From positions 1 through 64,000 of the forward strand of contig VBKI01000067.1 of the NCBI GenBank assembly GCA_005879535.1: a DNA stretch of 64,000 bases, read 5' to 3'. Below the pieces are notes generated by a model. That model saw only the letters and a program-made list of their open reading frames with translations. It was not told the origin of the DNA and did not search any database. Every line of letters starts with the position of its first letter. Within the stretch, counting starts at the first letter, position 1. This DNA comes from Deltaproteobacteria bacterium. Lineage in GTDB: Bacteria > Myxococcota > Myxococcia > Myxococcales > 40CM-4-68-19. This document shows positions 313-24,209 of this stretch, piece by piece. The position numbers were made by a program, and so were the translations under genes.

Positions 313-327
313 GTCCCCGTCCTCCGC

Positions 328-933: not shown

Positions 934-953
934 TTTCACAGTCCATTCACTCG

Positions 954-1397
954 TCAATGAGGCAGCAGCCGCTCGACGCGGCGGCGTTCCTCGATGCTCG
1001 ACCAGTCGAGCTCGCCAACGTGACTGAAGGCTACGGCGCCGTCCGGGCCGATGAGGAAGCTCGTCGGCACTGTCTTGATTCCCCACGCGGCGGTCGCGCG
1101 GGAATCGCGGTCGAGCAGCAACGGAAAGCGCAGGCCGAGGTCCTCCGCGGCATCCTTTGCGGTGCGTACGCTGCCGCCCATCTGCACCGCCAGGACGACG
1201 AATGGCCTGCGCGCGAGCGCGACACGGAGCCGCTCGATGCTGGGCAACTCGTCGCGGCAAGGCTCGCACCAGGTCGCCCAGAAATTGAGCAAGATCACCT
1301 TCCCCCGATAATCGGAGAGCCGGTGCGTCGTACCGTTCGCATCGGTGAGCTCCAGCGGCGGCGACGCCGCGAGCAGCGCGGCGACGAGCAGCGCCAT
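954..1397 (-). CDS. TlpA/ResA-like thiol-disulfide oxidoreductase
   Basis: A 147-residue thioredoxin-fold protein of the TlpA/ResA/AhpC-TSA class. It has a hydrophobic N-terminal segment (ALLVAALLAAS), a strand KVILLNFWATWCEPCRDE with the active-site CxxC at C44/C47, and the cis-Pro loop TVPTSFLIGPDG. Family members reduce periplasmic disulfides, often apocytochrome c cysteines; here a cytochrome c gene follows directly, which supports that role. Its ATG overlaps the stop codon of the upstream transglutaminase-like gene by one base, so the two are translationally coupled. The substrate is inferred from context only. Confidence 0.85.
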   Translation of the reverse strand: MALLVAALLAASPPLELTDANGTTHRLSDYRGKVILLNFWATWCEPCRDELPSIERLRVALARRPFVVLAVQMGGSVRTAKDAAEDLGLRFPLLLDRDSRATAAWGIKTVPTSFLIGPDGAVAFSHVGELDWSSIEERRRVERLLPH

Positions 1398-2458
1398 CAA
1401 ACCGCGCGGGCCGTGATGGTGTACTTGAATCGATCGGGTTCGAGCTGATCGAGCCGCTCCCCGCCGGTCTCCCCGTTGGGATACATGAGGAATGGCAGCC
1501 GCGGGCCTTTGGAGTTGGGCAGCTCGATGTCGTGACCGGTGTTGTAGGCGAGCCAGTTCATCTCCCAGGATCCGAAGAGGCGTGTGCGCGCAGCCTGAAC
1601 CTTTTGGTCCTCGAGCGTGAGCTGTCCGGGCGGCTCCTCGAGGATCACCTTGCGCACGTCCGCCGGATCGACCGGGACCCAGCCGACGCCTTCGGCGAAG
1701 AACTCGGCGCGGCAGTGCTGGGCCTTGCTGATGACCGGCGTCGATGGGCCGAGGCTCTTGTAGCCCAATGCAGAGCTCGCGACGCGGATGCCGTAGACGT
1801 CGCGTGCCGGAACGCCCAGCGATCTGGCGAAGCCGACGAACAGGCCGTTGAGATCGGCGCACTTCCCGCCCAGGTTGCCACTCTCGAGCATCGCCTTGAT
1901 GTTGCCCGTACCGCATCCGCGCGTTTTCGGATCGCGCAGCGTGTTCTTCACGACCCATTCGTAGATCGCGCGTCCCTTCTCCAGGTCGGTGCGAGCGCCC
2001 TTTGCGACTTTCACGAGCGCCGTCTCGCGCATCAGGCCATCACACGGGATCATCTCGGTCGGAGCGGTATAGAGGGCGACCTCGGCGCTGTTGAGCTTGG
2101 CCGTGCGTGATCTCGACACGTCGACCGCGCGATCGCGGGTCGCGAAGCGGCTCGTCAGCTCGACGAACGGCGCCTCCTGTCCGGGGGACCACTCGGTGTA
2201 CAGCAACGGCACGCCGTACTTGCCGACGCGCATCGGCTGCATCCGATTTGCGTTGCCCGTCCAGGTGCTGTCCGCGGCCCGCTGCCAGTCGGTATCGCCA
2301 GTGAGCGGCATGGGCAGCCAGGCACGTGAGACGCCCTGTGGTCTGGAGATCTCCGCGCGGGTCGTGACTTCGAAGGTGCGCCAGCCCGACTCCGCACGCA
2401 GGCGACGCCAGGGAAGGGCCGCAAGGACCGCGGCACCGAGCAGTTCACGTCGCTTCAT
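1397..2458 (-). CDS. Exported transglutaminase-like cysteine protease-fold protein
   Basis: The start ATG 2458 gives MKRRELLGAAVLAALPWRRL, a short export signal with paired arginines that could be Tat-type. The body carries the transglutaminase-core triad: Cys in GGKCADLNGLFVGFARSLG near residue 200, His in KAQHCRAEFF, and Asp in WVPVDPADV. Such proteins act as periplasmic proteases or isopeptide-forming enzymes; the real substrate is unknown. It heads a tight minus-strand group with the TlpA-like protein and cytochrome c. Length (about 353 residues) is usual for the bacterial transglutaminase-like superfamily. Confidence 0.8.
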   Translation of the reverse strand: MKRRELLGAAVLAALPWRRLRAESGWRTFEVTTRAEISRPQGVSRAWLPMPLTGDTDWQRAADSTWTGNANRMQPMRVGKYGVPLLYTEWSPGQEAPFVELTSRFATRDRAVDVSRSRTAKLNSAEVALYTAPTEMIPCDGLMRETALVKVAKGARTDLEKGRAIYEWVVKNTLRDPKTRGCGTGNIKAMLESGNLGGKCADLNGLFVGFARSLGVPARDVYGIRVASSALGYKSLGPSTPVISKAQHCRAEFFAEGVGWVPVDPADVRKVILEEPPGQLTLEDQKVQAARTRLFGSWEMNWLAYNTGHDIELPNSKGPRLPFLMYPNGETGGERLDQLEPDRFKYTITARAV

Positions 2459-2567
2459 GGCGCGGGAAGCTAACGGAGGGCGTGTCAGGCCGCAAGGACC
2501 GGGCGCGCTCGCAAGAAGGCCCCGGCCAACGGCGCGCGCTGGACCGCGGTCGTCTCGCGCGGCTCGA

Positions 2568-3335
2568 TTAGTCTCGATCGTCGTGATCGCCGTCCCCATG
2601 CGGCTCCGCGATACCGTGGCCGCTTCGGATGAACTGGCCGTTCACGAAGATGTTGTCGACGACGGAGAGGCCAACACCCCGCGGGTCTTCGACGCTGGGA
2701 GCGTCGGTGCCCTCGTCGACGATCAGATCGATGCTCTCGATGTTGCTACCGGGCGGGATGGGCGGGAACGCCGTAGCCGCGCCGTTCGCAAAACGGACGC
2801 GCGTCCATTCGGTCGGATCCTGCGGCGCAGGTGTCGGGGTGCCGTTTGCGCACCCGCCGATGAAATGAAACGTGGGGTCGTTGTGGCCCTGGCGCGCCAC
2901 GACATTGAACCGCGGCGAGCCGGCGCCACAATGCGTGCCGTTGCGGTAGTCGAATCCCAGCACGAACGTGCCGTCGACGGCGACCCTGAGTCCCTTCGCG
3001 CCGCGAATCGTGGCGCCGGCGGAGGAGCAATCAGCCGTGGGACCGTTCTTGTTGAGAATGAGCCCGGAGTGCGGATCCCTTCTGGAGGCCGCGCCTTTGC
3101 TTGAGCCGGTGTCAAGAACGGTCGTATTCAACTGCTGGTCGTTCTTGTCCGGCAGGCCCATTCCGCGCAGCCAAGCCGAGGTGACGATGTTGCTGCCCGG
3201 CGGGTACCCGGGCCCGCAGTCTCCAGCGTCGCCGACGAAGACGAACGGCACTGCGCGGAGACCCTCTTCGTCGTCGCCACGAGCGCCGACGCCGATTGCA
3301 GCAATGCACGCAATGAGCGCGAGTCGATTGGACAT
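2568..3335 (-). CDS. Secreted protein of unknown function
   Basis: ATG 3335 is preceded by an excellent ribosome binding site, AAGGAGG at 3341-3347, so the longer reading (start 3365) is unlikely. The N-terminus MSNRLALIACIAAIGVGARG is a signal peptide. The mature part has paired cysteines (GDCGPGYPPG, PTADCSSAG, THCGAG, GGCANG) and beta-rich phrases such as FNVVARQGHNDPTFHFIGGC, suggesting a disulfide-stabilised extracellular beta domain. It ends in a polar Asp/His-rich tail (HGDGDHDDRD) that may bind metal. No family was recognised. It is monocistronic, 109 bases upstream of the transglutaminase gene. Confidence 0.65.
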   Translation of the reverse strand: MSNRLALIACIAAIGVGARGDDEEGLRAVPFVFVGDAGDCGPGYPPGSNIVTSAWLRGMGLPDKNDQQLNTTVLDTGSSKGAASRRDPHSGLILNKNGPTADCSSAGATIRGAKGLRVAVDGTFVLGFDYRNGTHCGAGSPRFNVVARQGHNDPTFHFIGGCANGTPTPAPQDPTEWTRVRFANGAATAFPPIPPGSNIESIDLIVDEGTDAPSVEDPRGVGLSVVDNIFVNGQFIRSGHGIAEPHGDGDHDDRD

Positions 3336-3909
3336 TGGAACCTCCTTGAGCGCGCTTAAACGCACGCTGAAAAAGAACAGTCAAGGCGCTCTGCGGCAAA
3401 GCGACGTCGAATATCAGTTCGTAACGAATGAGCGAATGGAGCTCCATTTTGACGTCATTCATCGGACGGGGCCCTCGTACGCCTGCCCGGCAGGTGAGCT
3501 ACCGCGGGAAATCTTCCAGCTCGCGAGGGCGGCTCCGCCGACGAGGTCGTGGGCGATGGTCGCATGTCTCTGCACGGCGCCTTTCGCAACCAGACGCCGA
3601 CATTGCAGACGATCGCTGGCCCGAGGTCAACGGGACGGGAATTCGGGGACACGATAGTGAATTCGAAGCGGAAATTCGTATTGTGTCCGCCGAATTTCGG
3701 CCCTAAGGCTCGAAGGGATTGAGGCAGTGGCCCGGTTGCGAGGGAGAACCCGAAATCGTCCCTCCGTGCGGGATGCACTAGGAAGGCGGCAGCGTCGCCC
3801 GGCGCTCAGAATGCGCGGCACCGCGACATCGACTGCGCCCTCGCGGCGACGAATCGGCCTAGCGCGAGGGGGCCGAACGGGTTCAACAGCGGCGAACGAG
3901 GCCCTCGGG
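3336..3909. other. Non-coding gap with a palindromic element
   Basis: About 570 bases separate two minus-strand secreted-protein genes. Apart from the ribosome binding site at 3341-3347 and the palindromic element at 3638-3700 I see no gene here. The short open frames do not show protein-like composition or a convincing start. Confidence 0.5.
3638..3700. repeat. REP/MITE-like imperfect palindrome
   Basis: The two halves are inverted copies: AATTCGGGGACACGATAG on the left pairs with the reverse complement of TATTGTGTCCGCCGAATT on the right, with GAATTC/GAAATTC near the centre. The core phrase TTCGGGGACAC.ATA.GAATT resembles the flanks of REP elements mobilised by REP-associated tyrosine transposases, as remembered from other genomes. 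No transposase gene is in the window. Local AT content is higher than in the flanks. Confidence 0.6.
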
Positions 3910-5916
3910 TCAGCGCGGCGACGACGCCGACGTGCCTGGGCGCGTGTTCTCCTGGAGGAACTTGAGGAGGCGGCCGTACATCCGCTCTCGCGCGCCGTCG
4001 TCGAAGAAGCCGTGGCCTTCCTTCGACTCGACCAGCCACTCCGGCGCGTTTCCGCGCGCCGTCAGTGCGTCGCGCAACGATTCGGCATGACGGATGGGGG
4101 CACGCTCGTCCTTGCTCCCGTGGATGAGGAAGACGCGGGCGGCGATCAGGTCCGCGTGCTTCACGGGCGAGGCCTTCGCCAGCGCCTCGCTGTCTTCGCC
4201 GACGACGGTGCGCACGTAGCCGCGACCGAGCCGTCGGAGGCTGATGTCGCCGATCCTGGTCAGCAGGTTGAGGTCATAGATCCCTGAATAGCCCGCGGCG
4301 CAGCGAAAGAGATCTGGAGCGAGGACGGAGCTCTGGATCGCCGCGTAGCCACCGAAGCTCGCGCCGTAGATGCAGATGCGCTTCGGGTCTCCGAACCCCT
4401 TGCGAACGGCGAATCGAGTCGCATCGATGATGTCCTGGACGACGCGATCGCCCCATTTGCGATACCCGGCCTCCTCGTAGGCGAGGCCGTACCCTCCCGA
4501 TCCGCGGTAGTTCACCTGAAGGACGGCAAAGCCCTCGTGCGCCAGGAGCTGCGCCTCGGGATCGAATCGCCACTGATTCCGGACGGAGTGCGGCCCCCCG
4601 TGCGGCAGCACTACCAGCGGCGGCGGCGTGCCGGGCTGCGCATTGGGGGGCATGGTGATGTATCCGTGGATGCGAAACCCGTCGCTTGCGGGAATGTGGA
4701 ACGCCGACATCTCGGCCATCGAATCGGGCTTCACCCAGGGCCGGACGTCCGCAATCGTCTCCGCGGTCATCGTTGCCACGTCGGCCAGGAGATAGCGTCC
4801 CGGGTCCCGGTCGCTGTATACGCGGACCAATGCCTTGCGGTCGTCGTCAGTGGTGCTGACGATCCGGACGTGCTCGTTCGGGTTCGTCACCAGCAGTCCT
4901 TGCAGGATGCGGCTGAGAGGATGAGGGGGGTCGAGATACTCGTACGTCGGTAGATCCGGCTCGTATTCCACGGCGACGATGCGCCCGTTCGAGTTGTCCT
5001 GGACCGCATCGGAGATGGGGGACGTCTCGCTCTTGCTCACGAGCTTGCGTTCGCCGGTGTCGATCGAGACCAGATAAAGAGCGAATCCTTCGGCGGCCGG
5101 CTCGCTCACATACAGCGCGCGCTCGCTCGCGACGAATCCGATGGGAGTGCTCTGGCTGGAGAGACCGCTGATCGACCGGAGCTCGCGCCAGCCCGCGCTG
5201 CCTTCGAAGTAGAAATACCTCGCGTTCGCGTTCTCGTCGATTGCGGCGGCGATGCGCAGTTCGCCGTTCTCGTCGGTGAGGAATTCTGCGTTGCGCAGCG
5301 GGCTGCGCGCGACGAACGTCTTCAGGCCCGTGTACACGTCGAGCTTGTGGACCTCGGGCACGCGGTCGCCGACGTCGTCCATGTAGGTCTGCTGGATGAG
5401 GATCTTGCGGGGATCCTTCCGCAGTGGGCCGATCACGAATCCCCAGGCCCTCTCGGTCGCTGCCTTGCGAATGTGCGAACCCACCTGCTGCTCGCCTGCG
5501 CGATAGCCGAAGATCACGCGCCCGCTCGTCCCTGTCGCGTCCACCGCGTAGATCTCACCGCGCGACACAGGGGCGGCGAGATAGCTTTCGTAATCCACCA
5601 TCTCGATCACGACCCGTTCGTCGTTCGCCCAATAGAAGTCGCCGATGGTGGACTCGCCCTCGGGCCTGAACAAGAAAGTGATCTGACGCGTGGCCAACCG
5701 GATGAATGAGAGGGTGCGCTTGCCGCCTTCCTCCGACAATGCAGCGACGAACGTACCCTTCGGAGACAGCTTGGCCGCGGTCACCATCGCGGGCCGCGTG
5801 AACACGGCGAGCCCGGTGGGGTCGGACTGGGGAACGAGGGGGGACGCGCTCGATTCGACGTGCTTGCACGATGCAGCCAGCGCGGCGAACACGATCAGGA
5901 TGGTGCGGACATGCAT
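3910..5916 (-). CDS. S9 family (prolyl oligopeptidase/DPP-like) serine peptidase, lipoprotein
   Basis: A 668-residue exported peptidase. The N-terminus MHVRTILIVFAALAASCKHV has a lipobox-like AASC, so it is probably anchored in a membrane facing the periplasm. Residues 50-370 form a beta-propeller-like region, and the C-terminal 260 residues are an alpha/beta-hydrolase domain. The nucleophile is in GASFGGY (Ser near 520), the acid in HGSKDERAP (near 600) and the His in EGHGFFDDG (near 636). Family members cleave short peptides, often after Pro or Ala. The gene stands alone with its own upstream region; nothing suggests regulation. Confidence 0.9.
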   Translation of the reverse strand: MHVRTILIVFAALAASCKHVESSASPLVPQSDPTGLAVFTRPAMVTAAKLSPKGTFVAALSEEGGKRTLSFIRLATRQITFLFRPEGESTIGDFYWANDERVVIEMVDYESYLAAPVSRGEIYAVDATGTSGRVIFGYRAGEQQVGSHIRKAATERAWGFVIGPLRKDPRKILIQQTYMDDVGDRVPEVHKLDVYTGLKTFVARSPLRNAEFLTDENGELRIAAAIDENANARYFYFEGSAGWRELRSISGLSSQSTPIGFVASERALYVSEPAAEGFALYLVSIDTGERKLVSKSETSPISDAVQDNSNGRIVAVEYEPDLPTYEYLDPPHPLSRILQGLLVTNPNEHVRIVSTTDDDRKALVRVYSDRDPGRYLLADVATMTAETIADVRPWVKPDSMAEMSAFHIPASDGFRIHGYITMPPNAQPGTPPPLVVLPHGGPHSVRNQWRFDPEAQLLAHEGFAVLQVNYRGSGGYGLAYEEAGYRKWGDRVVQDIIDATRFAVRKGFGDPKRICIYGASFGGYAAIQSSVLAPDLFRCAAGYSGIYDLNLLTRIGDISLRRLGRGYVRTVVGEDSEALAKASPVKHADLIAARVFLIHGSKDERAPIRHAESLRDALTARGNAPEWLVESKEGHGFFDDGARERMYGRLLKFLQENTRPGTSASSPR

Positions 5917-6207
5917 GGTGTCGAAGTCTCCTTCGTGAGGGGAAAAGAGCCAGCCACTTCGGCTGGGGTCGCGTCAACAGCCAGGATTCGAGCTCCTATG
6001 GCCCATTGGCATGTGCTGTGGAGCTGTTCGGCGTCTACCCGAGTGGTTCTACCAGGCAGGCTCGATGGCGTTTACCTCATGACCAAAGATCCGAAAGTAC
6101 TCGTCGAGAAGAGAGTGAATCACAATGGCCAGCGATTCGTGCTGTTCTGGGACGGATCAGTGAAGTCCTTCGATGATGTCCAGTTTGATAGATTGAAGAG
6201 AGATGGA

Positions 6208-7128
6208 TTATCGATGCGGCGCATCGCAAGCCGCCCACAAAGAATCCGAACCCCAAACGAGGGTGCAGTGGCGAAGCAGGTCAGCGCCGACGGCTCCCCG
6301 CCAGCAGAGGGATGAGTTCGGTGATACCAGGATTGGCAGCACGAACGAGGTCCCTGAAAACACGACGGGAACATCGTCGACCACAAGGATGGGTCCCTGC
6401 GAGGTCATCGCCGTCACTGTGTCGCGCTTGCCTCTCTTGTCGAGCATGGTGGACACGGCGGGATTGTTGCGCGTGAGCACCGTGTGCGATGCGCCGGTAT
6501 CGATCAACATGTCAGCCGCCACGCCATTGATGGCCGCGGTGACGATGCGGTGGTATTCTTGGAAAAGACCCTCATTCAGGCAGCGATGGAAGTCCAGTTG
6601 GCGCACTGGCGCAGAAGAACCTCGAGCAATCCGCTTCAAGGCCGCCTCTTCCGGCTCGTAGCGAAGCTCCTCGCGTCCTAGATCGATGATCAGCGCCCAC
6701 CCGGAGCGAACCAGATCTTGTGGCGCCAGGATTCCCTCAGTCCCCAACGAGGGATTGATGAAGAAATCGAGCGTGTCAGTGCTGGTTTCACCTGCGAACT
6801 GGATCGACACGTCGAAGACGCGCAGCAATCCGACCATGTTTCCGGTTGCATCCACGACCCGCTCCTCGGTATCGCGCGACTTCGCGATCAGGCCGTGCGT
6901 CTTGGCGAATCCCCATGGAAGCATGCTCCGAAATGATCCCGTATCCAGCAGGAGAGTGATGGGATGACCCGCCACCGTCGCGCGGACGAGCGGGCGGACA
7001 CCGCCTGCGCTGGAGCTCTCGACAACCAACGGCGTGAAATGCGCCGTCGGTGGCGGCCGATGAGCACAGGCAACCAGCGAGACAATCCATGCCCAGCCAA
7101 TCCACGGTACCAATCGCTTTCCAGCCAC
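6208..7128 (-). CDS. Aspartyl (retropepsin-like) protease with two DTG motifs, lipoprotein
   Basis: The 306-residue product starts with a lipoprotein signal (SLVACAH, Cys21). It then carries two separate catalytic-type loops, LLLDTGSFRSML (Asp62) and MLIDTGASHTVL (Asp210). Retropepsin-like proteins have one DTG and dimerise; two DTG loops in one chain suggest an intramolecular pseudo-dimer as in pepsin, but much shorter. The protein should act on periplasmic or outer-membrane substrates, which are unknown. No operon partner is visible; the next gene upstream is on the other strand beyond a degraded stretch. Confidence 0.75.
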   Translation of the reverse strand: MAGKRLVPWIGWAWIVSLVACAHRPPPTAHFTPLVVESSSAGGVRPLVRATVAGHPITLLLDTGSFRSMLPWGFAKTHGLIAKSRDTEERVVDATGNMVGLLRVFDVSIQFAGETSTDTLDFFINPSLGTEGILAPQDLVRSGWALIIDLGREELRYEPEEAALKRIARGSSAPVRQLDFHRCLNEGLFQEYHRIVTAAINGVAADMLIDTGASHTVLTRNNPAVSTMLDKRGKRDTVTAMTSQGPILVVDDVPVVFSGTSFVLPILVSPNSSLCWRGAVGADLLRHCTLVWGSDSLWAACDAPHR

Positions 7129-7159
7129 GATTCCCGTCCTGTTCCGGTTGGCGGCGAGG

Positions 7160-7210
7160 CTACACCCTTTTCAGCCCGCGATTGAAACCCTCGATGTAGC
7201 CGTTGTCCAT
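7160..7210 (-). mobile_element. Possible transposase C-terminal remnant
   Basis: Seventeen codons ending in a stop read MDNGYIEGFNRGLKRV. The phrase NGYIEGFN..LK resembles the conserved C-terminal DDE region of ISL3-like or IS3-like transposases (the catalytic Glu is in IEGFN). Nothing upstream continues the similarity and no terminal repeats are visible, so this is a scrap at best. Short length limits certainty. Confidence 0.35.
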
Positions 7211-7299
7211 CGACCGAGCCGCTGCTCGAGTGGCGCGGGCTGACGCCGGAGAACCCCGTCGGACGGCGATGACGCGCGGGTCGTGATAGGGTCCGCCGG

Positions 7300-7746
7300 A
7301 TGCGGAGGGTCCTGGCTGCCGTCGCTCTCTCGTTCGCGGCGACGGCTGCCACACCGCACGACGAGATCGCGTCGCTGTTGAACGAGTTTCTCACCAGAGT
7401 CGACGACATTGCGATGCACGAGCGTTTCTGGGCCGACGATCTCGTCTACGTCAGCGCCAAGGGCGAGGTACGCAGCAAGGCCAACATCCTCGAGTCGATG
7501 CGCGCTGGCGACACGCCCGGCGTTCGCGACAGGAAGCCCGGAGAGCCGAAGACGACGTACTCCGCACAAGAGGTGAAGGTCCGTCCGCTCTGTGCCGGCG
7601 TTGCCATGCTCAACATCCGCCTCGTCCAGCACGTCGGCGACAAGACGAACTACTTTCGTAACAGCGGCGCGTTCGTGAAGCGCGACGGCCGGTGGCAGGT
7701 CGTGAGCTGGCAGGCGACGCGTGAAGAACCGCCCTCGAGCCATTGA
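7300..7746 (+). CDS. Exported SnoaL/DUF4440-like (NTF2 fold) protein
   Basis: A 148-residue protein with an N-terminal signal (MRRVLAAVALSFAATAATPH) and an NTF2-like core. Features are an N-terminal helix (EIASLLNEFLTRVDD), the FWADDLVYVSAKGEV turn, and the closing strands RNSGAFVKRDGRWQVVSWQAT, which is the DUF4440/SnoaL pattern. Members bind small hydrophobic ligands or act as domains of unknown function; an enzymatic role cannot be assigned. It stands between a transposase scrap and a LuxR remnant, but itself looks intact. Confidence 0.75.
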   Translation: MRRVLAAVALSFAATAATPHDEIASLLNEFLTRVDDIAMHERFWADDLVYVSAKGEVRSKANILESMRAGDTPGVRDRKPGEPKTTYSAQEVKVRPLCAGVAMLNIRLVQHVGDKTNYFRNSGAFVKRDGRWQVVSWQATREEPPSSH

Positions 7747-7758
7747 CGCCAGCAGTGC

Positions 7759-7983
7759 TCAAAGCGGGCGCGACTCGAGTGCCTTGAGGACCGCGCGGGT
7801 GCGCTCGCGGAGGCCGAACTTGGCCAGGATGCTGGAGACGTGATTCTTGATCGAGCCTTCGGCCGTTTCGAGCGCGTGGGTCTCCTTCTTGCTGTATCCG
7901 CCTGCCATCAGACGCACGATTTCGGAATCCGGAAGACATCGGACACCCTGCTGCTGCAGGTCGACGAGCCCGACGCCCTCCAC
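7759..7983 (-). pseudogene. LuxR/NarL-type HTH remnant of a response regulator
   Basis: The frame encodes a recognisable C-terminal LuxR-type helix-turn-helix: IVRLMAGGYSKKETHAL, then AEGSIKNHVSSILAKFGLRE, then RTRAVLKAL. Compared with intact members it lacks the 'LTxRE' opening and has small deletions before the recognition helix, and the receiver domain is absent upstream. It is therefore most likely a non-functional leftover of a NarL/FixJ response regulator. No partner histidine kinase is in the neighbourhood. Confidence 0.65.
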
Positions 7984-8100
7984 CGTCGACTGGCAGACGC
8001 TGGGGCAAGAGTGAACTAGCGGTCCTTTGCGTCCGGACGTGCCTCCCGCAACCGCTCGCGCATGGCCATGGGATCCCGACCCACGCGCCCGGGGTGAATC

Positions 8101-9276
8101 ATGCGCATCGACTGCAGATGGATCGCGCTCCTCCTCTTGGCCGCCTGCGCCGGCATGCGGGATCCGGAGACCGGATCCAACGATTCCGGTTCCTCCGGTC
8201 TATTGACGATCACCGCGAGCGCCGACGAAGTCACCGTGGGTGACTCCCCGGTGACCCTGACGGCGGCGCCGGGCGAGGCGAGTTGGAGCCTGCTCGGGCC
8301 CGGTAAGCTGTCGGGGGTGACGGGACAGACGACGCAGTATCTGCCGCCCGACAGCCTCGACCTGACCGAGAGCGTGACCGTGACTGCGTCGCGCGGGAGC
8401 GACAAGGCGCGCGCCGTCCTGAAGGTACACCCTCGCCTCTCTTATCCCGTTGGACGCCGTCCGGTGGCGATCGGTTTCGACGGCGCCCGGCTCTGGGTCG
8501 CGGGCGCCTGGGACTTGGACGTCCTGATCCTCCGCCCGTCGGATGCGGCGCCGCTGGGTCGAGTCGTGGTCAATCACGGTGTCGGCGCGCTCGTATTCGA
8601 CGGGACGAACATGTGGACCATCAACCCCGGAGCCGATTCCGTCACGAAGCTCCGCGCCGCAGACGGCGCGAATCTGGGAACGTTCCCTGTCGGGAACCAG
8701 CCAATCGCCGGCGCCTTCGACGGAACGAATCTCTGGGTCACGAATCGCGGAGACCGGACGGTCACGAAGCTGCGAGCCTCGGACGGAGCCATCCTAGGCA
8801 CCTTCCCCGTCCCCGGGGGACCGGCGGGGATCGCGTTCGATGGAAAGAACCTCTGGGTCGCCAATCACGACCGGCCACCACCCGGGGGCGCCGGCGAGAC
8901 TGTCACTTGCGTGCGGCCCAGCGACGGAGCCAACCTGGGGAACGTCTACGTGGGGCCTGCGCCGTGGTTCGTGATCGCCGACGGCTCCGAGCTCTGGGTG
9001 ACGAGCCTTTACGCCGGCCTGGTCACGCAGCTCGACACCACCTCGGGCGGGCTCTTGCAGACCGGAAGGATCGGCAACGGCGCCAACGTCCAGGGCATGA
9101 CGGTCGCCCGCGGGTCCCTCTGGTTCGGCTTGGTGCCTGGCTCGGTCGTCAAGGTGAATCCGGCGAACCTGTCACAGCAGGCCTCCTTCACGATCAAAGG
9201 GCCGTCGGCGTTCGCTTTCGACGGCACGCGCCTGTGGATCGGGAGCCTGGACGGGAACTCGCTGACGCCGCTCTGA
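8101..9276 (+). CDS. Lipoprotein with YVTN/NHL-like beta-propeller repeats
   Basis: A 391-residue protein with a lipobox (LLLLAACAG) followed by a Ser/Gly-rich linker. Residues 35-100 look like a bacterial Ig-like domain (TITASADEVTVGDSPVTLTA). After that about six blades of roughly 43 residues repeat the consensus 'G.PVA.AFDGTNLWV.N...VTKLRASDGA.LGTF'. The blades form a propeller of the YVTN/NHL kind, normally used for protein or ligand binding at the cell surface. No catalytic residues are evident and no operon partner is present; the downstream neighbour is a trypsin remnant. Confidence 0.8.
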   Translation: MRIDCRWIALLLLAACAGMRDPETGSNDSGSSGLLTITASADEVTVGDSPVTLTAAPGEASWSLLGPGKLSGVTGQTTQYLPPDSLDLTESVTVTASRGSDKARAVLKVHPRLSYPVGRRPVAIGFDGARLWVAGAWDLDVLILRPSDAAPLGRVVVNHGVGALVFDGTNMWTINPGADSVTKLRAADGANLGTFPVGNQPIAGAFDGTNLWVTNRGDRTVTKLRASDGAILGTFPVPGGPAGIAFDGKNLWVANHDRPPPGGAGETVTCVRPSDGANLGNVYVGPAPWFVIADGSELWVTSLYAGLVTQLDTTSGGLLQTGRIGNGANVQGMTVARGSLWFGLVPGSVVKVNPANLSQQASFTIKGPSAFAFDGTRLWIGSLDGNSLTPL

Positions 9277-9324
9277 CCGGCTACTCGTCCTCGTCGTCTG
9301 TGAGCCGGGGCGCGTCGTCGTCGA

Positions 9325-9593
9325 TCGAGGCGGAAAAGATCCGGATGCTGGCCACGCCGCATCTGATCCAGATTGACACCGGATTCACCGGAGACTTCCC
9401 GCTGCTGCTCTCGAACAACGCGTCGACCGGCGGTACCTGCTTCGTTGACTCCGGCGGTCCGAATTACCTCGGGAGCAGCAACGTCATCGCTGTCACCTCG
9501 TTCGGGCTCAACGGGTCGCGCGGCGGCACCGGGGGAGTGTTCCGCCTCGACCGGCAGAACGTCCTCGATTTCGTGTCGCAGTATCTGAAATAA
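9325..9593 (+). pseudogene. C-terminal remnant of a trypsin-like (S1) serine protease
   Basis: This frame has no start of its own. It reads LPLLLSNNA-type text, then GGTCFVDSGGPNYLGSSN, then VTSFGLNGSRGGTGGVFRLD and LDFVSQYLK. The DSGGP loop is the S1 peptidase catalytic serine site, and the remainder matches the last third of the fold. The His and Asp of the triad and the N-terminal half are missing. The usual Cys after LNG is replaced by Ser-Arg. It is a degraded fragment just downstream of the beta-propeller lipoprotein. Confidence 0.65.
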
Positions 9594-9828
9594 ACGGAAC
9601 CGTCCAGCGCGATGGGCGCGGCGTCAAGCGGTGCCGCGCCATGCCTCGAGCTTCGGTAGCAGGCCGATCTGCCGAACCACACCTAGATAAGTGGCGTCCC
9701 CACGGAGATTCGAAATTCACCAGGCACTTCCACGGAACTCAGCGATGACACACGCGATTTGACCCCGTCGGGGGCAAAGGCGGGGGAACAAGGTTCCTTG
9801 CATCCTCCCGAGGGCAGCCGGCTGTCCA

Positions 9829-10091
9829 TCACGCGTTCGACTTCCGCTCAACGATGCGGACGTCCAGGTGTCCACCAAGCGCGCGCGACCTTCTCGAGAA
9901 AGTCCAGCCTCGGGACCACCTTGCCGCTCTCGAGCCGCGCGATGTTCGGTTGCTTTTCTCACGAAGTCCCTTCACCTTTCGTGCGAGCTGCAGCCGATCG
10001 AACTCAGCCGGAACTCGGGATCCTTCGCGCGCTGATCTCCGATGAACTCGTCGAGGCTGCGCCTGGTGTGAGGATTCTTCTTCTTTGCCAT
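9829..10091 (-). pseudogene. HigA-like XRE antitoxin remnant (multiple frameshifts)
   Basis: ATG 10091 opens with MAKKKNPHTRRSLDEFIGD and a first frame ends early. Similarity continues in a second frame (AEFDRLQLARKVKGLREK), then a third (QPNIARLESGKVVPRLDFLE), then back to the second (ALGGHLDVRIVERKSNA, stop 9829). Put together, these are the pieces of a HigA/XRE antitoxin. The first DNA-binding helix of the HTH is deleted. At least two frame changes plus this deletion make a functional product very unlikely. A possible toxin tail lies immediately upstream. Confidence 0.7.
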
Positions 10092-10109
10092 GTCGCCTCC
10101 GTTGGCCCC

Positions 10110-10175
10110 TCAGGGCCTCTTCCCCGTGACCTCTCGGAACCGCAGCTCGGCGGTCTCCACGTCTCCCTGCTTCCA
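10110..10175 (-). pseudogene. Possible HigB/RelE-type toxin C-terminal remnant
   Basis: On the same strand and directly upstream of the antitoxin remnant, a short frame reads GWKQGDVETAELRFREVTG and ends at a TGA (10110-10112). The 'G(D/E)xExAExR' pattern resembles the C-terminal tail of Gp49/HigB-family toxins, and the gene order toxin-antitoxin is the normal higBA order. The upstream part is replaced by plus-strand TPP-enzyme sequence, so the toxin is truncated. Confidence 0.35.
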
Positions 10176-10497
10176 GCCGGATGGCGATCTCATGTACGCG
10201 CCCGGCGTGCGGTGGACGGCGGCGCGGCACAAGATTCCGTTGCTCGCGGTGATGCACAACAACCGCGGCTACCACCAGGAAGTCATGCACGTGCAGCGCA
10301 TGTCGAACTTCCGCAATCGCGTCGTCAACACCGGCAAGGACATGGGCCCGGTCGGCACCGGCATCCACAATCCGGACATCGACTATCGCAAGCTCGCCGA
10401 GTCGATGGGCTGGTGGGCGAAAGGCCCGATCAAGAACCCGTCCGAGCTCGGTCCCGCGCTCAAGGAAGCGGTCGCGATGGCCCACGTACGTGAGGCA
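10171..10497 (+). pseudogene. Thiamine pyrophosphate enzyme C-terminal remnant
   Basis: The frame reads QPDGDLMYAPGVRWTAARHK, then IPLLAVMHNNRGYHQEVMHV, then GPVGTGIHNPDIDYRKLAES. This is the ThDP-binding C-terminal domain of acetolactate synthase/benzoylformate decarboxylase-like enzymes: GDG changed to DGDL, with NNRGY as the second part of the ThDP motif. The first two thirds of the enzyme are missing, and the end is fused out of frame to a cytochrome c piece. The substrate of the ancestor is unknown. Confidence 0.7.
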
Positions 10498-10732
10498 CGG
10501 CTGCTGGCAGTGCCATGGCTTCGACGGCCAGGGCAGCATCGCAGGTTCGAAGATTGCGCCGAATCCGCTGCCCTTCGAGGCGTTCTCCGACTTCGTGCGC
10601 ACCACCGGCGGCGCGATGCCGCCCTATCAAAAGGCGATCCTGTCGGACGAAGACCTCGCCGACATCTACGCCTATCTGCAGTCGGTGCCGAAGGCGCGGG
10701 ACCCGAAGACGATCCCACTGCTCAATCCGTAG
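10490..10732 (+). pseudogene. Cytochrome c fragment
   Basis: Eighty codons read HGCWQCHGFDGQGSIAGSKI, continue through PLPFEAFSDFVRTTGGAMPP, and end DLADIYAYLQSVPKARDPKT. The CWQCH haem-binding motif and the Met ligand in GGAMPPY are present, but there is no signal peptide, so export and haem attachment could not occur. It joins the TPP remnant after a deletion. TPP enzyme and cytochrome c genes are probably remains of one operon. An intact very small cytochrome is unlikely. Confidence 0.6.
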
Positions 10733-10862
10733 GCGCAAAGCGCTTTCGATAGCAGGCGGTAGACGTGGACGCGGCGCACCTTGCCGGCGCGAGCGTCGAG
10801 GCATGCCCGGCACCCGAGATGGACTCGTGAAGTTCGAATTGAGAAGCGCTCGCGTCCATCGC

Positions 10863-13800
10863 TCACATGGGTTTGTCGCCGGGAACCCCCCACTGCTGCA
10901 GCCGGACGACTCCGTTCGAGCTTTGCAAGATGTACCAGTTCCCCTCCTGCGGTCTCCACACGACCAAGTCTGTCCGGCCGTCACCGTCATGATCGCCCGG
11001 TACTGGCACATCGCCTGAGAGTCCCCATTGCTGGACGGGAGTCGCTCCGTTGGAGCTATTGATGATCCACCAGGTGCCATCCGACGGTCTCCAGATCGCA
11101 AAATCAGTTTTGCCGTCGCCGTCGTAGTCCCCAGGTACGGGGATGTCGCCACGCACACCCCACTGCTGCACGCGACCGCGCCCGGTCGAGCTGTCGATGA
11201 CCCACCAGGTCCCGTCCGACGGTCGCCAGATCGCAAAATCGGTCTTGCCGTCGCCGTCGTAGTCGCCCGGCACCGGAACGTCTCCTGGCACTCCCCACTG
11301 CTGCACGCGACCGCGGCCGCTCGAGCTATCGATCACCCACCAGTTCCCATCGGATGGACGCCAGATGGCGAAATCGGTCTTGCCATCCCCGTCGTAATCA
11401 CCCGGGACCGCGACATCGCCCGACAGGCCCCACTGCTGGACGCGACTCCTGCCGCTGGAGCTGTCGATGACCCACCACGTTCCGTCCGAAGGACGCCAGA
11501 TGGCGAAGTCCGTCCGGCCGTCGCCGTCGTAGTCGCCGGAAGCGGGGACGTCCCCCGAGAGGCCCCATTGCTGGACGCGTGGAGTCAACCTGGCACTGTC
11601 GAGGATCCACCAGGTGCCGTCGTTCGGTCGCCAGATCGCGAAGTCGCTCTCCCGGTGACCCTCGAAATCATTCGAGCTGACCTTGAGCGCGTTCCGGTGG
11701 ATGAAGGCGGCCGCGCGCGTGTTTGTCACGGGAATGTCGTCGGGGATCCCCCATTGCTGGATGCGCATGCCCGTGCCGCTGCCGATGATCCACCAATTGC
11801 CGTCGGTCGGCCTCCAGATCGCGACGTCGGTCCTGCCGTCGCCGTCGTAGTCACCAGGCACCGGAATGTCGCCTTCCACTCCCCACTGCTGGATCGTTTG
11901 CGCTCCGGTGGAACTGCTCAGGACGATCCAATTGCCGTCCGCCGGACGCCAGACCGCGAGGTCCGTCCTCCCGTCGCCGTCGTAGTCGCCGGGAACCGGC
12001 ACGTCACCCGGTATGCCGAGGCGCCGTACGTCTGTCGCCCCGGTCGAGCTATTCACGATCCAGAAATCCCCGGCACTCGGGCGCCAGATCGCGAAGTCCG
12101 TCTTGCCGTCGCCGTCATAGTCCCCGGGCACCGGGATGTCTCCGGGAAGCCCCCACTGCCGGACGGTGGCGATACGCGTAGCGTTGCTCATCACCCACCA
12201 TTCGCCGGTCGCGGGACGCCAGATGGCGAAATCGGTCCTCCCGTCGCCGTCGTAATCGCCCGGGACCGGTATGTCGCCCGGGACGCCCCACTGCACCACG
12301 TCCGAAAAGGGATACCCGATGCTGCTGGGGACGAAGTACCAGTTCCCCTCGGCAGGCCGCCACACCGCGAAATCCGTGATCCCGTCATTGTCGTAATCTC
12401 CGGGGACCGGTATGTCGCCGGGTAGACCCCACTGCTGCGTGAACGAGGCGCCGGTCGCGTTGTCCATGATCCACCAGGTCCCGTCCGTCGGTCGCCAGAT
12501 GGCGAAGTCGCTTCGCCCGTCCGCGTTGTAATCGCCCGATTTGACGATCGACGCAGCGGGATTTCGCACCAGGGACGGCGCGCCGATGCAAGCCGCTAGA
12601 TCGTCGCGCGCTGTCTCCAGGTTCGTGGTGTACGCCGTGGGCGCGGCGGGATCGGGATAGTTGCTGGCGTGGTAGGTGCTTCCGGAATTGCTGGCGTTCA
12701 TCGGGAAGACGCTTAGCGCGTTCCGCCGCGCGCGTGCAGGATCCTTCTGCGCGCACATCCGGAGGTATTCGTAGTCCTCGAGTCCCTCGCGAAGCATCTT
12801 AAGGCGATAGCTGGCGACGGGCTCATGCGAGCTGCCGCCGATCGTTGCGGGCGTGCCAGCGTATACGAACGTCCCGTCGCCGTTCCCCGTCGACCCCGAG
12901 AGGCCGCCGGTGTTCCACGCCGTGCCGATTAGTTGCGCGACATCGAAGTACATCATTCCTGAAGGAGCGTTGTCCGGATTGTAGATGAAGTGCATCCATG
13001 GTTCCGCCCGGTTCTGCACGCCGATTGCGTCGACGACGAAGCTGATCCAGTTGACATGGGTGGGATCGCCGCACCCGTTCGAAGTTGAGCAGCTCTGATA
13101 GCCCCAGCGATACCTGTTAGGTCGTCCTAGGAACGATCCATAGGTCGGCGCGAGGTTCCCGGTTTGCGGCTTGTCGAGCTGGTCCCAGAGTGGAATCAGG
13201 ATGTCGAGGAAGTTGCCGCCGCCATGCACTTGAACGAAGTTCGTGTAGTCCGAGAGCTGCGCGTTCGCGCTCGTGCGAAAGTTCGGGAAGGCGGCCTGGA
13301 TGATGTTCGCTCGCGCGGCGGTCATGTCCCAAGTCGTGAGCCTGCCGACCTGCGGCTCGTCCCCGGTGTAGTCGAACATGATCGGAAACCACGCTTGTCC
13401 CATCGCGTACTGCCCCCAGTTACGTGCCTTGTCGCGCTTGACGGAATCCGTGTCACGGGCGTTGAACCACGGGTAGATCAAGCTTGTGGCCCTGGCGCCG
13501 GCGAGCTGGCGCGCGTTGCCGTCCGTGCCGTTGATGAGACCTGCATAGTCGCGCGTGAAGCGCGCTTCGACGTTGGCGTAGTCGAGCGATCCGACGGTGT
13601 TGCTGTCGTCCGGCAGGCGGATCGTTATGCGATGGTCGAGCAGGAACCGACCATAGAAACGGCTCCAGAAGTGGAATGAATCCACCGTTGCGCACGAGGT
13701 GCCTCCGGCATGAGCGGCGCAGGTCGCGTCCACCGAAAAGCCGAAGAACGACGGCAAGGAGCTCGTCGAAGAAAGCCGGAACGGACGCACCGTGAGGCCG

Positions 13801-14438
13801 ATTGCGACCGAGCCGCTGAACGGCGTTCCATCCGGGAAGGATCCCGACACGTTCACCGACCCGCTGTAGTGCGCGGCGGCGGTCCCGTCCGGAACGTGCA
13901 CGTCTACGAGAACGACACGGTTCTCGTTCGCGGGTACCGCGAACGGGAAGGCGCTCCTGGTCTCCGTCGTGACTGCTTCCCGCCATCCGTTCGGTTGGCA
14001 TCCGGCGGTTCCGGCCGAGCAGGGCGAGGCCGTCGTTGTGGTTTCCTGAGCAGGGATGAGCGGGTCGGGGTAGGGAATTGGATTCGTCGCGCTCGCTCCG
14101 ACGGCGCCCTCGTTGTTCGTCGGGGCAGTGAGGTTGACGAGCTCCTCGCGATATAGCCGAATCGAATCGGCGGGGATTGTGGATGTCGTTCCGTCGCGGG
14201 TCAGCACGGGTTTATCGACCCTCAATCCCACGAGCCCGGTCGCACCACCGGAAACGACGACCTGGAGCGCCTCGAACTCGTTCTGCGCGGCCTTGAGCTG
14301 CGCGCAGCTCGTCACCGCCGGCGGCGCAGCCCTGGGCAACACCTTGAGTGAAGAGCACACAACGGTCACGGACGCGCCGCGAGCCGCACCGGCTGCGAAA
14401 GCCGCCAGAGCAATTGCCAACACGCACTTGTTCGTCAT
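10863..14438 (-). CDS. Giant secreted protein: DUF4091-like domain plus 12 FG-GAP/VCBS-type repeats
   Basis: A 1191-residue exported protein with signal peptide MTNKCVLAIALAAFAAGAARG. Residues 25-600 hold a domain ending in YRLKMLREGLEDYEYLRMC near 540, the typical C-terminal motif of DUF4091 proteins, which look like glycoside-hydrolase barrels. Residues 630-1190 hold twelve units of about 47 residues with consensus GDIPVPGDYDGDGKTDFAIW. Each unit contains the Ca-binding loop DxDxDGxxD, as in FG-GAP/VCBS repeats. The seventh unit lacks the loop (GDIPVPGDYDGDG is replaced by DDIPVTNTRAAAF) and has about 17 extra residues. It is likely a cell-surface carbohydrate- or matrix-binding protein; the substrate is unknown. 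Confidence 0.85.
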   Translation of the reverse strand: MTNKCVLAIALAAFAAGAARGASVTVVCSSLKVLPRAAPPAVTSCAQLKAAQNEFEALQVVVSGGATGLVGLRVDKPVLTRDGTTSTIPADSIRLYREELVNLTAPTNNEGAVGASATNPIPYPDPLIPAQETTTTASPCSAGTAGCQPNGWREAVTTETRSAFPFAVPANENRVVLVDVHVPDGTAAAHYSGSVNVSGSFPDGTPFSGSVAIGLTVRPFRLSSTSSLPSFFGFSVDATCAAHAGGTSCATVDSFHFWSRFYGRFLLDHRITIRLPDDSNTVGSLDYANVEARFTRDYAGLINGTDGNARQLAGARATSLIYPWFNARDTDSVKRDKARNWGQYAMGQAWFPIMFDYTGDEPQVGRLTTWDMTAARANIIQAAFPNFRTSANAQLSDYTNFVQVHGGGNFLDILIPLWDQLDKPQTGNLAPTYGSFLGRPNRYRWGYQSCSTSNGCGDPTHVNWISFVVDAIGVQNRAEPWMHFIYNPDNAPSGMMYFDVAQLIGTAWNTGGLSGSTGNGDGTFVYAGTPATIGGSSHEPVASYRLKMLREGLEDYEYLRMCAQKDPARARRNALSVFPMNASNSGSTYHASNYPDPAAPTAYTTNLETARDDLAACIGAPSLVRNPAASIVKSGDYNADGRSDFAIWRPTDGTWWIMDNATGASFTQQWGLPGDIPVPGDYDNDGITDFAVWRPAEGNWYFVPSSIGYPFSDVVQWGVPGDIPVPGDYDGDGRTDFAIWRPATGEWWVMSNATRIATVRQWGLPGDIPVPGDYDGDGKTDFAIWRPSAGDFWIVNSSTGATDVRRLGIPGDVPVPGDYDGDGRTDLAVWRPADGNWIVLSSSTGAQTIQQWGVEGDIPVPGDYDGDGRTDVAIWRPTDGNWWIIGSGTGMRIQQWGIPDDIPVTNTRAAAFIHRNALKVSSNDFEGHRESDFAIWRPNDGTWWILDSARLTPRVQQWGLSGDVPASGDYDGDGRTDFAIWRPSDGTWWVIDSSSGRSRVQQWGLSGDVAVPGDYDGDGKTDFAIWRPSDGNWWVIDSSSGRGRVQQWGVPGDVPVPGDYDGDGKTDFAIWRPSDGTWWVIDSSTGRGRVQQWGVRGDIPVPGDYDGDGKTDFAIWRPSDGTWWIINSSNGATPVQQWGLSGDVPVPGDHDGDGRTDLVVWRPQEGNWYILQSSNGVVRLQQWGVPGDKPM
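10878..12545 (-). repeat. In-gene tandem repeat array (about 141-bp units, 12 copies)
   Basis: The C-terminal half of the giant secreted protein gene is a tandem array whose units are close to 141 bases and very similar at DNA level, for example the recurring stretch GTCGCCGTCGTAGTC on the plus strand. Such near-identical units favour slippage and unequal recombination, and can cause assembly collapse. The four units nearest the 3' end are the most alike. Confidence 0.85.
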
Positions 14439-14715
14439 TGATCCCCTCCCGGTGAAGGCGAGGGGTGCAGTACCGCGAGCAAGCGAGCCCTCGCGCAGGA
14501 GGAGTCGTCATGCTGACCGGTACTCGACGTTCAAACACTGCGCGTGTGCGGACGTGAACGGCGAGACGCGATTGAATCAATTCGCAGTCGGCGCCTGCAA
14601 AAGTGCGCGATCTACGCCATCGTCAGATTGTGCGCGCGGCGTGCCATCGCCGCGGTGTTCGTTACCGGAACGGCGCGTCGGGACTTCGTGCACGCACGTG
14701 TGACGCGAGACGTGC

Positions 14716-14847
14716 CTACCGCTGCGGCGTCGACATGCCCCACCGCACCACGGTGTGCCGCTCGATCCAGCGGAACAGAAGGTTCTCGACCACGAGGTCG
14801 ATCAGCACCACCGTCACGAGGCCAGCGAAGACCAGCTCCGTGTTCAT
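14716..14847 (-). pseudogene. ABC transporter permease C-terminal remnant (NitT/TauT-like)
   Basis: The frame reads MNTELVFAGLVTVVLIDLVV, then ENLLFRWIERHTVVRWG, and ends at a TAG (14716-14718). This is the last transmembrane helix and C-terminal tail pattern of nitrate/taurine-type ABC permeases (FAGL...L.....RW.ER....W). The preceding 200 or so residues are missing: just upstream the sequence becomes that of a plus-strand integrase fragment. No ATPase or binding protein of this type is nearby. Confidence 0.55.
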
Positions 14848-15409
14848 CTCAGAAGCGGTTCCCGCCGTGCTCGCGTTCGTGTTGCTCGCTGGCGAGGCGG
14901 GGCTTCGGCGAGACGAGATCATCGCATTCGATCTGACCGATGCCGACTTCAGGCGCGGCCAACTCACTATCGCCCGATCCGACTGGTGCGGCCAGATTGG
15001 TACGACCAAGGGAGGCAAGACGCGACGGGTCCCGATGACCACGCGTCTCACTGCGGCCCTGCAGGCGATCAGGCACCTTCGAGGGCCGAGGATGCTCTAC
15101 CACCGCAACGCGGGGCCGGTGAGCGAGAACGCCCTGCGGAACTGGATGGAACGCGCGGAGCGAGCCGGTGGCCTTGCCGTGACCGGCCACATCCACCAGC
15201 TGCGACACACCTTCTGCTCGCATCTCGCGATGCGTGGAGCCCCGGCGAAAGCGACTCAAGAGTTGGCCGGCCATGCGGACCTCTCGACCACGATGCGCTA
15301 CATGCACTTGTCGCCAGCGTCGCTCAACCAGGCGATCCGGTTGCTCGAGCAGCGCGGTCCGATCGGGGGCAACAGCGGGACAACCAAGGCTGAAGAGAAA
15401 CAGAACTGA
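14848..15409 (+). pseudogene. Tyrosine recombinase (XerC/D-type) catalytic-domain remnant
   Basis: Only the catalytic domain is present. It has the first Arg in GLRRDEIIAFD, the Lys in TKGGKTRRVPM, the H-x-L-R box QLRHTFCSHLAMRGAPA, the second His region TQELAGHADLSTTMRYMHLS, and the nucleophile Tyr in MRYMH. All active-site residues look intact, but the N-terminal core-binding domain and start are absent; an unrelated ABC permease tail in the opposite orientation occupies that place. It is most likely the leftover of an integrated element or integron-type integrase. Confidence 0.7.
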
Positions 15410-15460
15410 AGGCCTGGGCCTCTAGACGATGGGGACGTCGAGCGCGCCCGTTTAGCACAA

Positions 15461-16456
15461 CTACTGACCGCTGTGCACAGCTCCGAGCTGCACCACTTCG
15501 AACGCGCTCGCGGGGACCGTCTTCAGCTGATCGAGATCGGTGATCGACCAGCGTGAATCCTGAGCGCCAGCCACCGACCAGAACTGGCCACCTGCGCTGT
15601 CCGTGACGAACATGCCGTACCTCTGCAGGGCGCGAAGGATCACCAGCGAGGCTCCGTTGAATCGGGAAAGATCGAAATCCGCCCGCAGCCGGGCGCGCAG
15701 GCCCATCGGCGGCGCGTAAGTCGCGTTGGTGCTGCCCGACGAGTGCGTTGCCGGCGCGACGTACGCGTGCGCGGTTCCGCCCGCGATGAACGCGAGCGCG
15801 TGCCGGATCTCGCCTTGATCGACCGCCTCGTCGTAGCGCGCCAGCCCGGGAAGAATGGGCAGGCCGGCAGCGGTCGCCGACGTCCATCCGTCGGGTCGCG
15901 GTGCGCCCGAAGCCAGATCGAAGATCGCGCCAGAGTCGGCGTGGAATCCGGAACCGGAAGCGTAGGTGTTGTACGTCTCGTAGATCCTGCACTCGTCGCG
16001 GACGAGGACGGTCGCGTGTCGATCCTCGTTCGCCTGGATGGGAAGGTCTCGCGGAAACGGATAAGGACCAGGCTCGCTCTGCGACGCATAGAGGAACGAC
16101 ATCGGCACACGCGCCTGATCCGCGGGGACGACGACGAACGGCTGGCCATACTGCCCGCCGAAGTCGGGCTGCAGATACAGCGAAGAGGCGCCCATGAACG
16201 CAAGGTAGTCGGCGGAGTGCGAATCGACCGGCTCTGATGACACGTCGCGGTTCCACGCGTTGTCGGGAGGAAACACCGGGCAACCCGCGAGCGTCGGACC
16301 GCGAGACACCACGCCAGCGTCCGCCTGCGGGACGCCGCCGTCCTCTGGCGGGACCACGGAAGCGTCGGGAGACGCGACGGAACCGGCGTCACCGGGCGAG
16401 CGAGCCATAGGCCCCCCGCACGCGGAGAGGGCGAGCAGAGCCCAACCAATGCGCAT
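15461..16456 (-). CDS. Lipoprotein of unknown function
   Basis: A 331-residue protein with a lipobox (ALLALSACGG) followed by a Pro/Asp/Ala-rich linker, then a large globular region starting GCPVFPPDNAWNRDVSSEPV. Recognisable phrases are GQPFVVVPADQARVPMSFLY, GSGFHADSGAIFDLAS and HAYVAPATHSSG. A conserved 'FPxDNxWN.D.S' opening occurs in uncharacterised secreted proteins of several high-GC phyla. No catalytic motif is evident. It is on the same strand as, and 31 bases downstream of, the ADOP permease, so it may be co-transcribed with it. Confidence 0.7.
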   Translation of the reverse strand: MRIGWALLALSACGGPMARSPGDAGSVASPDASVVPPEDGGVPQADAGVVSRGPTLAGCPVFPPDNAWNRDVSSEPVDSHSADYLAFMGASSLYLQPDFGGQYGQPFVVVPADQARVPMSFLYASQSEPGPYPFPRDLPIQANEDRHATVLVRDECRIYETYNTYASGSGFHADSGAIFDLASGAPRPDGWTSATAAGLPILPGLARYDEAVDQGEIRHALAFIAGGTAHAYVAPATHSSGSTNATYAPPMGLRARLRADFDLSRFNGASLVILRALQRYGMFVTDSAGGQFWSVAGAQDSRWSITDLDQLKTVPASAFEVVQLGAVHSGQ

Positions 16457-16487
16457 CTACAAATTCAAATATCGGCCGACGTCGATT

Positions 16488-18860: not shown

Positions 18861-18864
18861 GAAG

Positions 18865-18890
18865 CTACTGTATCATGGGTGATACAGTAG
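18865..18890. promoter_or_regulatory. Perfect 11-bp inverted repeat, likely repressor operator (PadR-like)
   Basis: CTACTGTATCA (18865-18875), four-base spacer, TGATACAGTAG (18880-18890): a perfect palindrome in the 35-base gap between tatC (stop 18896) and the ADOP permease start (18860). The TGTATC...GATACA core is like operators of PadR regulators, which are known to accompany ADOP permeases. The palindrome covers the ribosome-binding zone and an alternative ATG, so binding or hairpin formation could block the permease's translation or transcription. Confidence 0.6.
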
Positions 18891-18895
18891 AATCA

Positions 18896-20106: not shown

Positions 20107-20173
20107 GGGCCCTTTCTAACACCTCGCGCGCGCCACTGCGCGCGTTCGAGACGTAAGCCGGGGGCTTAAAACC

Positions 20174-22708: not shown

Positions 22709-22746
22709 CGGTCGGTCCTACGGCGGAACATCAGAACCGGGGCGGT

Positions 22747-24179: not shown

Positions 24180-24209
24180 TCGATCTTATCAGCGAGCGCA
24201 GGAGGCAGC

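Follow-up and report, generated by a model that had tools for sequence, protein, structure and literature searches.

The closest described counterparts of the locus reported here are the Islander-type islands (PMC4383910), which, in the part of that account consulted, have tRNA or transfer-messenger RNA (tmRNA) genes as targets, the T loop being one of three crossover subsites, and the partial tRNA genes of van der Gulik et al. 2023 (PMC9897764), where, again in the part of the source consulted, an integrating element makes a partial copy of the gene and one complete copy is kept beside the element. To these can be added the known tRNA integration hotspots for several islands, in which one tRNA gene serves different elements. 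The window analysed here covers the initial 64 kb of C67, a 96.8-kb contig in a draft genome of a Deltaproteobacteria bacterium (5.16 Mb, 118 contigs); throughout, G001, G002 and so on designate relatives' genomes, a C-number following them designates a contig (for example G004:C616), and a bare C-number is a contig of the window genome. With a probability of roughly 85%, we interpret the region between positions 9692 and 15436 as a decayed tyrosine-integrase genomic island inserted in the gene for tRNA-Glu(UUC), on the basis of the following features (nt, tRNA nucleotide; E, expect value):

9692-9714, minus strand: displaced 3' fragment of tRNA-Glu(UUC), nt 54-76, the distal attachment site (22/23 matches)
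9715-9838, strand not applicable: distal end sequence of the element, apparently shortened by deletions (matches G004:C616)
14849-15409, plus strand: 5'-truncated tyrosine integrase gene, catalytic domain only (Phage_integrase, E 1.4e-24)
15413-15436, minus strand: 5' fragment of the target tRNA-Glu(UUC), nt 1-24 (23/24 matches), anticodon arm and 3' half missing
15461-16456, minus strand: backbone gene neighbouring tRNA-Glu(UUC) in relatives, adjoining the tRNA in G002:C39 and a truncated tRNA-Glu in G004:C314

Two tRNA fragments, a common core and an integrase remnant can thus be documented from the DNA itself. Both fragments lie on one strand and in the order that integration predicts, with the displaced end, on the minus strand, located downstream of the 5' portion of the tRNA, and the 24-bp core pattern, allowing up to three mismatches, occurs once in the window and not at all in 100 shuffles. 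A search with the tRNA-Glu query covered 12 genomes of the family (the window genome and G001-G011), and all four 3' fragments in them (one in the window, three in G004) start at nt 54, as would be expected of a recombination core. G004:C13 carries two tRNA-Glu cores, at 2923-2946 and 7423-7451, each adjoining an integrase 3' remnant, and probably represents another decayed array in the same genus.

The two ends of the island have separate counterparts in G004. (i) At the distal end, 9691-9757 is 97% identical over 67 bp to G004:C616:1936-2002, a stretch that begins about 55 bp past an integrase gene; in G004 the same sequence follows the same tRNA core beside another integrase; two further pieces, 9755-9792 (38 alignment columns, 84%) and 9792-9838 (47 columns, 87%), match that contig some 70 and 950 bp further on. 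(ii) At the other end, the integrase remnant, in which alignment shows some 220 of 405 residues to be missing from the N-terminus, is 90% identical at 14861-15399 to G004:C130:3127-3665, and some 30 bp separate the end of the integrase gene there from an intact tRNA-Glu (anticodon TTC). We found 146 loci with relatives of this integrase and kept the best 80; in 45 of these a tRNA or tmRNA gene lies within 500 bp of the integrase 3' end, always on the opposite strand, 19 being tmRNA and six tRNA-Glu(TTC), three of the latter at the G004, G008 and G009 loci. In seven of the remaining 35 the DNA on that side is shorter than 500 bp, and the others show no tRNA or tmRNA gene; since several loci come from one genome, they are not independent.

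Gene order in relatives breaks at the same place. Positions 15413-16370 and 18896-24992 are collinear with G002:C39, the stretch 16488-18860 excepted, and that contig carries tRNA-Glu at the corresponding end; G001:C122 matches 18921-24990 and likewise has tRNA-Glu there. On the left, eight flanks of this tRNA were compared (from G002, G001, G007, G009, G011 and G008, and two from G004), of 1.8-17.4 kb, four of the eight being under 4 kb, and no common gene order emerged among them and the window. What these flanks share is an integrase beside the tRNA, in G009, G008, G004:C130 and the window; other likeness amounts to three weak protein matches of about 32% (G001 with the window, G007 with the window, and G007 with G002). 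Identity across species was 90% for the integrase and 97% (67 bp) for the distal end with G004, and 95-97% for two cargo remnants with G010; backbone genes stood at 67-84%, and the gene adjoining the tRNA at 81% with G004 and 67% with G010. These findings bear out one proposal of a preliminary description of positions 7160-10732, that a former genomic island lies here, by attachment fragments in a tRNA gene, an integrase remnant and a synteny break at that gene; they do not bear out its boundaries, since the break expected at 7.1 and 10.8 kb was found at 15.4 kb instead and only the right third of that span lies inside the island.

We propose that a tyrosine integrase would have inserted the element at a core starting in the T loop (nt 54-76), which would account for the displaced 3' fragment at 9692-9714, the far end, and for an integrase gene adjoining the regenerated tRNA at 15.4 kb. 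Later events may then have removed the N-terminal half of the integrase, broken a HigBA pair and shortened a cargo of thiamine pyrophosphate (TPP)-dependent enzyme and cytochrome c genes, while a deletion running from the integrase end into the tRNA would have left nt 1-24 only; that these losses were deletions, and their order, is our reconstruction. Given the truncated integrase, the island has probably lost the ability to move on its own.

Compared with Islander islands as the consulted part of PMC4383910 presents them, the locus has the tyrosine integrase, the tRNA target, the displaced 3' fragment on the same strand and on the downstream side, and a length above 2 kb; the integrase lies in the interval between the two tRNA parts, though its gene is 5'-truncated. 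In contrast to those islands, the regenerated tRNA is broken, nt 1-24 alone being left at 15413-15436; as the complete tRNA at one end is missing, we class the site as a decayed remnant and not as an intact island. With the partial tRNA genes of van der Gulik et al. 2023, again judged from the part of PMC9897764 consulted, it shares a partial copy made by an integrating element, whereas fragments are found here at both ends in place of one complete copy. Like the hotspots, this tRNA gene serves different elements; unlike them, it is seen in decay, in metagenome-assembled genomes of an uncultured lineage. The kind of element is therefore well known and the doubly broken tRNA is its sole unusual feature; a literature search on disrupted or displaced target tRNA genes found no clear precedent, which is weak evidence of novelty. 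What had been a vague gene graveyard becomes a mapped attachment site, and the decay of a tRNA island can be seen in an uncultured lineage.

Between its ends the island holds the following:

9832-10091, minus strand: HigA-type antitoxin gene, disrupted by frame changes and by a deletion within it
about 10110-10165, minus strand: C-terminal end of a HigB-type toxin, about 18 residues, recognised by its place beside HigA and by likeness by eye
10167-10480, plus strand: 3' part of a TPP-dependent enzyme gene (TPP_enzyme_C, E 1.2e-10)
10482-10732, plus strand: 3' part of a cytochrome c gene (Pfam, E 9e-11)
10863-14438, minus strand: open gene for a 1191-residue FG-GAP repeat protein, within the island bounds (Pfam FG-GAP_3, E 7.3e-34)
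14719-14850, minus strand: coding scrap (75% DNA identity to G010:C158 over 99 bp)

The HigA remnant has an open homologue in G015 (E 5.9e-9), an HTH_3 protein adjoining a Gp49 (HigB-type) protein, and it is the latter that the toxin end resembles by eye. The TPP remnant is 95-97% identical in DNA to G010:C82, from another genus, and the cytochrome c remnant 97% to G010:C82:6230-6499; each copy has a gap relative to the other, of 98 bp in G010, near the end of its enzyme gene, and of 148 bp in the window, between both parts. A near-full-length TPP enzyme (E at most 1e-60) was found in G010 only, in one of 39 relatives. After the pair in G010, at C82 6561-6591, 31 bp are 97% identical to the 3' end of the window genome's tRNA-Met, possibly an attachment fragment of another island, and with this fragment behind it the pair may be carried along by islands of this type. 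A plasmid collection gave 290 records with a match to the TPP enzyme, all below 60% identity, and contains no plasmid donor; a plasmid integration site, also raised in the preliminary description, has no support of its own, replication genes not having been searched for. The FG-GAP protein would be island cargo; a 32% identical homologue lies left of tRNA-Glu in G001, in opposite orientation. The scrap at 14719-14850 has no Pfam or NCBIfam match, and by eye it resembles the end of a permease gene.

Left of the island, in the same variable zone and outside its ends, lie these features:

7163-7210, minus strand: scrap of 15 residues claimed as a transposase, identity not confirmed
7210-7272, plus strand: probable C-terminal end of an M3-family peptidase gene, short and tentative
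7300-7746, plus strand: open DUF4440 gene (Pfam, E 1.3e-9)
7759-7983, minus strand: LuxR-family regulator, C-terminal helix-turn-helix only (Pfam GerE, E 2.5e-5)
8101-9276, plus strand: open gene for a 391-residue, beta-propeller-like protein (no Pfam match, weak NCBIfam TIGR03866)
9279-9593, plus strand: C-terminal end of a trypsin-like protease, weak (Pfam Trypsin, E 0.002)
9616-9674, strand not applicable: 59-bp repeat with a second copy at C92:15933-15991 (92% identity)

The seven remnants first listed for this span divide accordingly: LuxR, the TPP enzyme and cytochrome c are firm from Pfam, as is HigA from its open homologue, while the trypsin assignment is weak (18.4 bits for the remnant on its own against a Pfam cut-off of 20.6, profile positions 173-210 of 220), HigB is named from its position, and the transposase is unconfirmed, with no Pfam match and a best plasmid tblastn match at E 3. 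An ISL3 transposase as its source is unsupported, PF01610 having no match anywhere in the window genome. Two genes said to be intact between the remnants, the DUF4440 gene and that for the 391-residue protein, are indeed open, the latter matching TIGR03866 at E 1.3e-4, far under the family cut-off. That list had left unnamed the M3 peptidase end, the 59-bp repeat and the tRNA 3' fragment and, beyond its span, the scrap at 14719-14850, the integrase remnant and the tRNA 5' fragment. The peptidase end matches G002:C57 at 92% over 37 columns, where the frame is that of a 732-residue Peptidase_M3 protein (E 5.4e-111); alone it gives no Pfam match, and part of the stretch also matches a different gene, in G001:C19 (91% over 32 bp). 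The LuxR remnant is 80% identical over 90 bp to G010:C264. As to the DUF4440 gene, it is 82% identical in DNA to G003:C305 over 7362-7728, and its start and signal-peptide stretch, 7283-7346, is 92-94% identical over 64 bp to C92:104-167 and C16:8249-8312, both times with other sequence attached; G003 has a similar leader (77%) at the start of an open reading frame (ORF) upstream of DUF4440. The window gene seems to have exchanged its leader naturally, through a deletion. The minimum of the window's guanine-plus-cytosine (GC) profile, 0.589, falls at 6001-7000, around an aspartyl-protease gene at 6208-7128.

The HigBA, TPP and cytochrome c remnants (9.7-10.75 kb) are inside the island, and those at 7.2-9.6 kb, in the variable DNA to the left of the tRNA, were probably left behind by other insertions and deletions. 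Our DNA search of the region covered 40 genomes, that is, the window genome and 39 relatives, scoring up to seven candidate places in each, and the matches in relatives are scattered over different contigs. No relative with the same order of intact genes, the finding that was to speak against a site of repeated insertion and deletion, turned up in it; two different remnants stand side by side in none of the 39 apart from the TPP-cytochrome pair in G010, a more diverged arrangement being one that would escape a DNA search.

Several observations weigh against a decayed island with these ends. The GC content of the region is ordinary; no empty site was found in the eight left flanks available, four of them under 4 kb; the two short distal pieces match G004 at the low identities of 84% and 87%; and the draft consists of 118 contigs, so that misassembly at the site is possible. 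We also tried to identify the window HigA with the antitoxin of G004:C616 and rejected this, as the HigA-like gene there is not homologous, which means that the two elements differ. Finally, no further tRNA-Glu fragment lies left of 9.69 kb in the window and, with this, the lack of an empty site and the short left flanks, the left two thirds of the 7160-10732 span are linked to islands by position only.

This last point concerns an explanation compatible with the decayed island, namely that the same tRNA holds a tandem array of islands, with 7.16-9.69 kb as an older, second member. G004 has several tRNA cores with integrases or integrase remnants (C616, C13 and C130), and its contigs C616 and C130 share a 118-bp identical end, as adjacent contigs would, although this end lies in a transposase gene and a plain repeat could explain it as well. 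Against such an array, the window has neither another tRNA fragment nor a significant integrase match left of 9.69 kb, and we consider it possible but doubtful. It is improbable that the locus is an artefact of assembly or binning, a chimeric contig in which pieces of several strains meet at a repeat and whose broken tRNA and mosaic junctions exist in no cell: the genome is a draft without an intact tRNA-Glu(UUC), and the matched contigs of G005 and G006 stop inside the gene beside this tRNA, as fits a place hard to assemble, but G004 independently has a truncated tRNA-Glu next to the same backbone gene, the contig runs on for 81 kb beyond, and the frame changes and internal deletions in several remnants are unlike the product of a few chimeric joins. 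Plain scattered pseudogene decay, in which neighbouring genes lost pieces and no mobile element took part, is hardly credible, for although LuxR and the probable M3 peptidase belong to ordinary chromosomal families, it is opposed by the tyrosine-integrase remnant, a tRNA fragment sharing its nt-54 core with three others, and a TPP/cytochrome cargo present in one of 39 relatives at 95-97% identity, the fragment at 9692-9714 speaking against it for the right part and not for 7.2-9.6 kb.

The broken target raises the matter of how the cell reads its glutamate codons. In the window genome the tRNA-Glu(UUC) query gave three matches, the CTC isoacceptor at C70 (74%) and the two window fragments, and the draft assembly contains no intact tRNA-Glu(UUC); ARAGORN reported no tRNA gene in the window, and Rfam gave no match at the gathering threshold in window positions 1-20000. 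All 50 tRNA-model matches of the genome fall within stretches scanned with ARAGORN, and CTC is the only tRNA-Glu seen. Other gaps noticed in the tRNA list are Ile(GAT) and Ala(TGC), which are usually located within rRNA operons, and a tRNA truncated where contig C77 stops resembles tRNA-Cys by eye. GAA accounts for 36 of 148 glutamate codons in seven window genes; since GAA should not be read by a CTC anticodon, a further tRNA-Glu copy must exist in the cell, probably unassembled. Intact TTC copies are present in seven of the 12 genomes searched (G001, G002, G004, G007, G008, G009 and G011) and were not found in the window genome, G003, G005, G006 and G010, four of these five being less complete drafts.

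A tentative and rather unlikely extension is that in this genus the role of tRNA-Glu(UUC) has moved from the native locus to a copy inside mobile DNA. Its basis is that the native-locus gene is broken in two species, with only nt 1-24 left in the window and only nt 1-42 in G004:C314, where the tRNA-Glu beside the backbone gene ends at nt 42; the one intact UUC copy found in G004, on C130, has the integrase on one side and, on the other, 1.27 kb without a match to the native flank. With 5% contamination in G004, the displaced state there is a lead and not proof. If true, survival of the host would depend on a mobile element with the sole GAA-reading tRNA, a case of a mobile element turned essential by taking over a translation gene.

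To the right of the tRNA, the gene at 16488-18860, a 790-residue ORF resembling an ABC-type permease by eye, has no place in G005, since the G005 matches to 15594-16546 and 18896-19839 are only 22 bp apart; this gene is probably a separate insertion.

Nine truncated protein-gene remnants between 7.2 and 15.4 kb (probable M3 peptidase, LuxR, trypsin, an end in the 59-bp repeat, HigB, TPP enzyme, cytochrome c, the 14.7-kb scrap and the integrase) retain their 3' part but not their 5' part, four of them being weak or tentative. A general bias to 3' gene ends, whether by selection against 5' fragments or by capture of mRNA ends, was not borne out in a wider test of low power, in which 1.29 Mb of the 5.16-Mb genome was compared with 1118 reference proteins. 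There, 73 non-genic match clusters comprised 33 that span most of the query, probably genes missed by the simple gene caller, 20 internal, 11 C-terminal and nine N-terminal ones, and control alignments to called genes also lean C-terminal, 368 versus 160.

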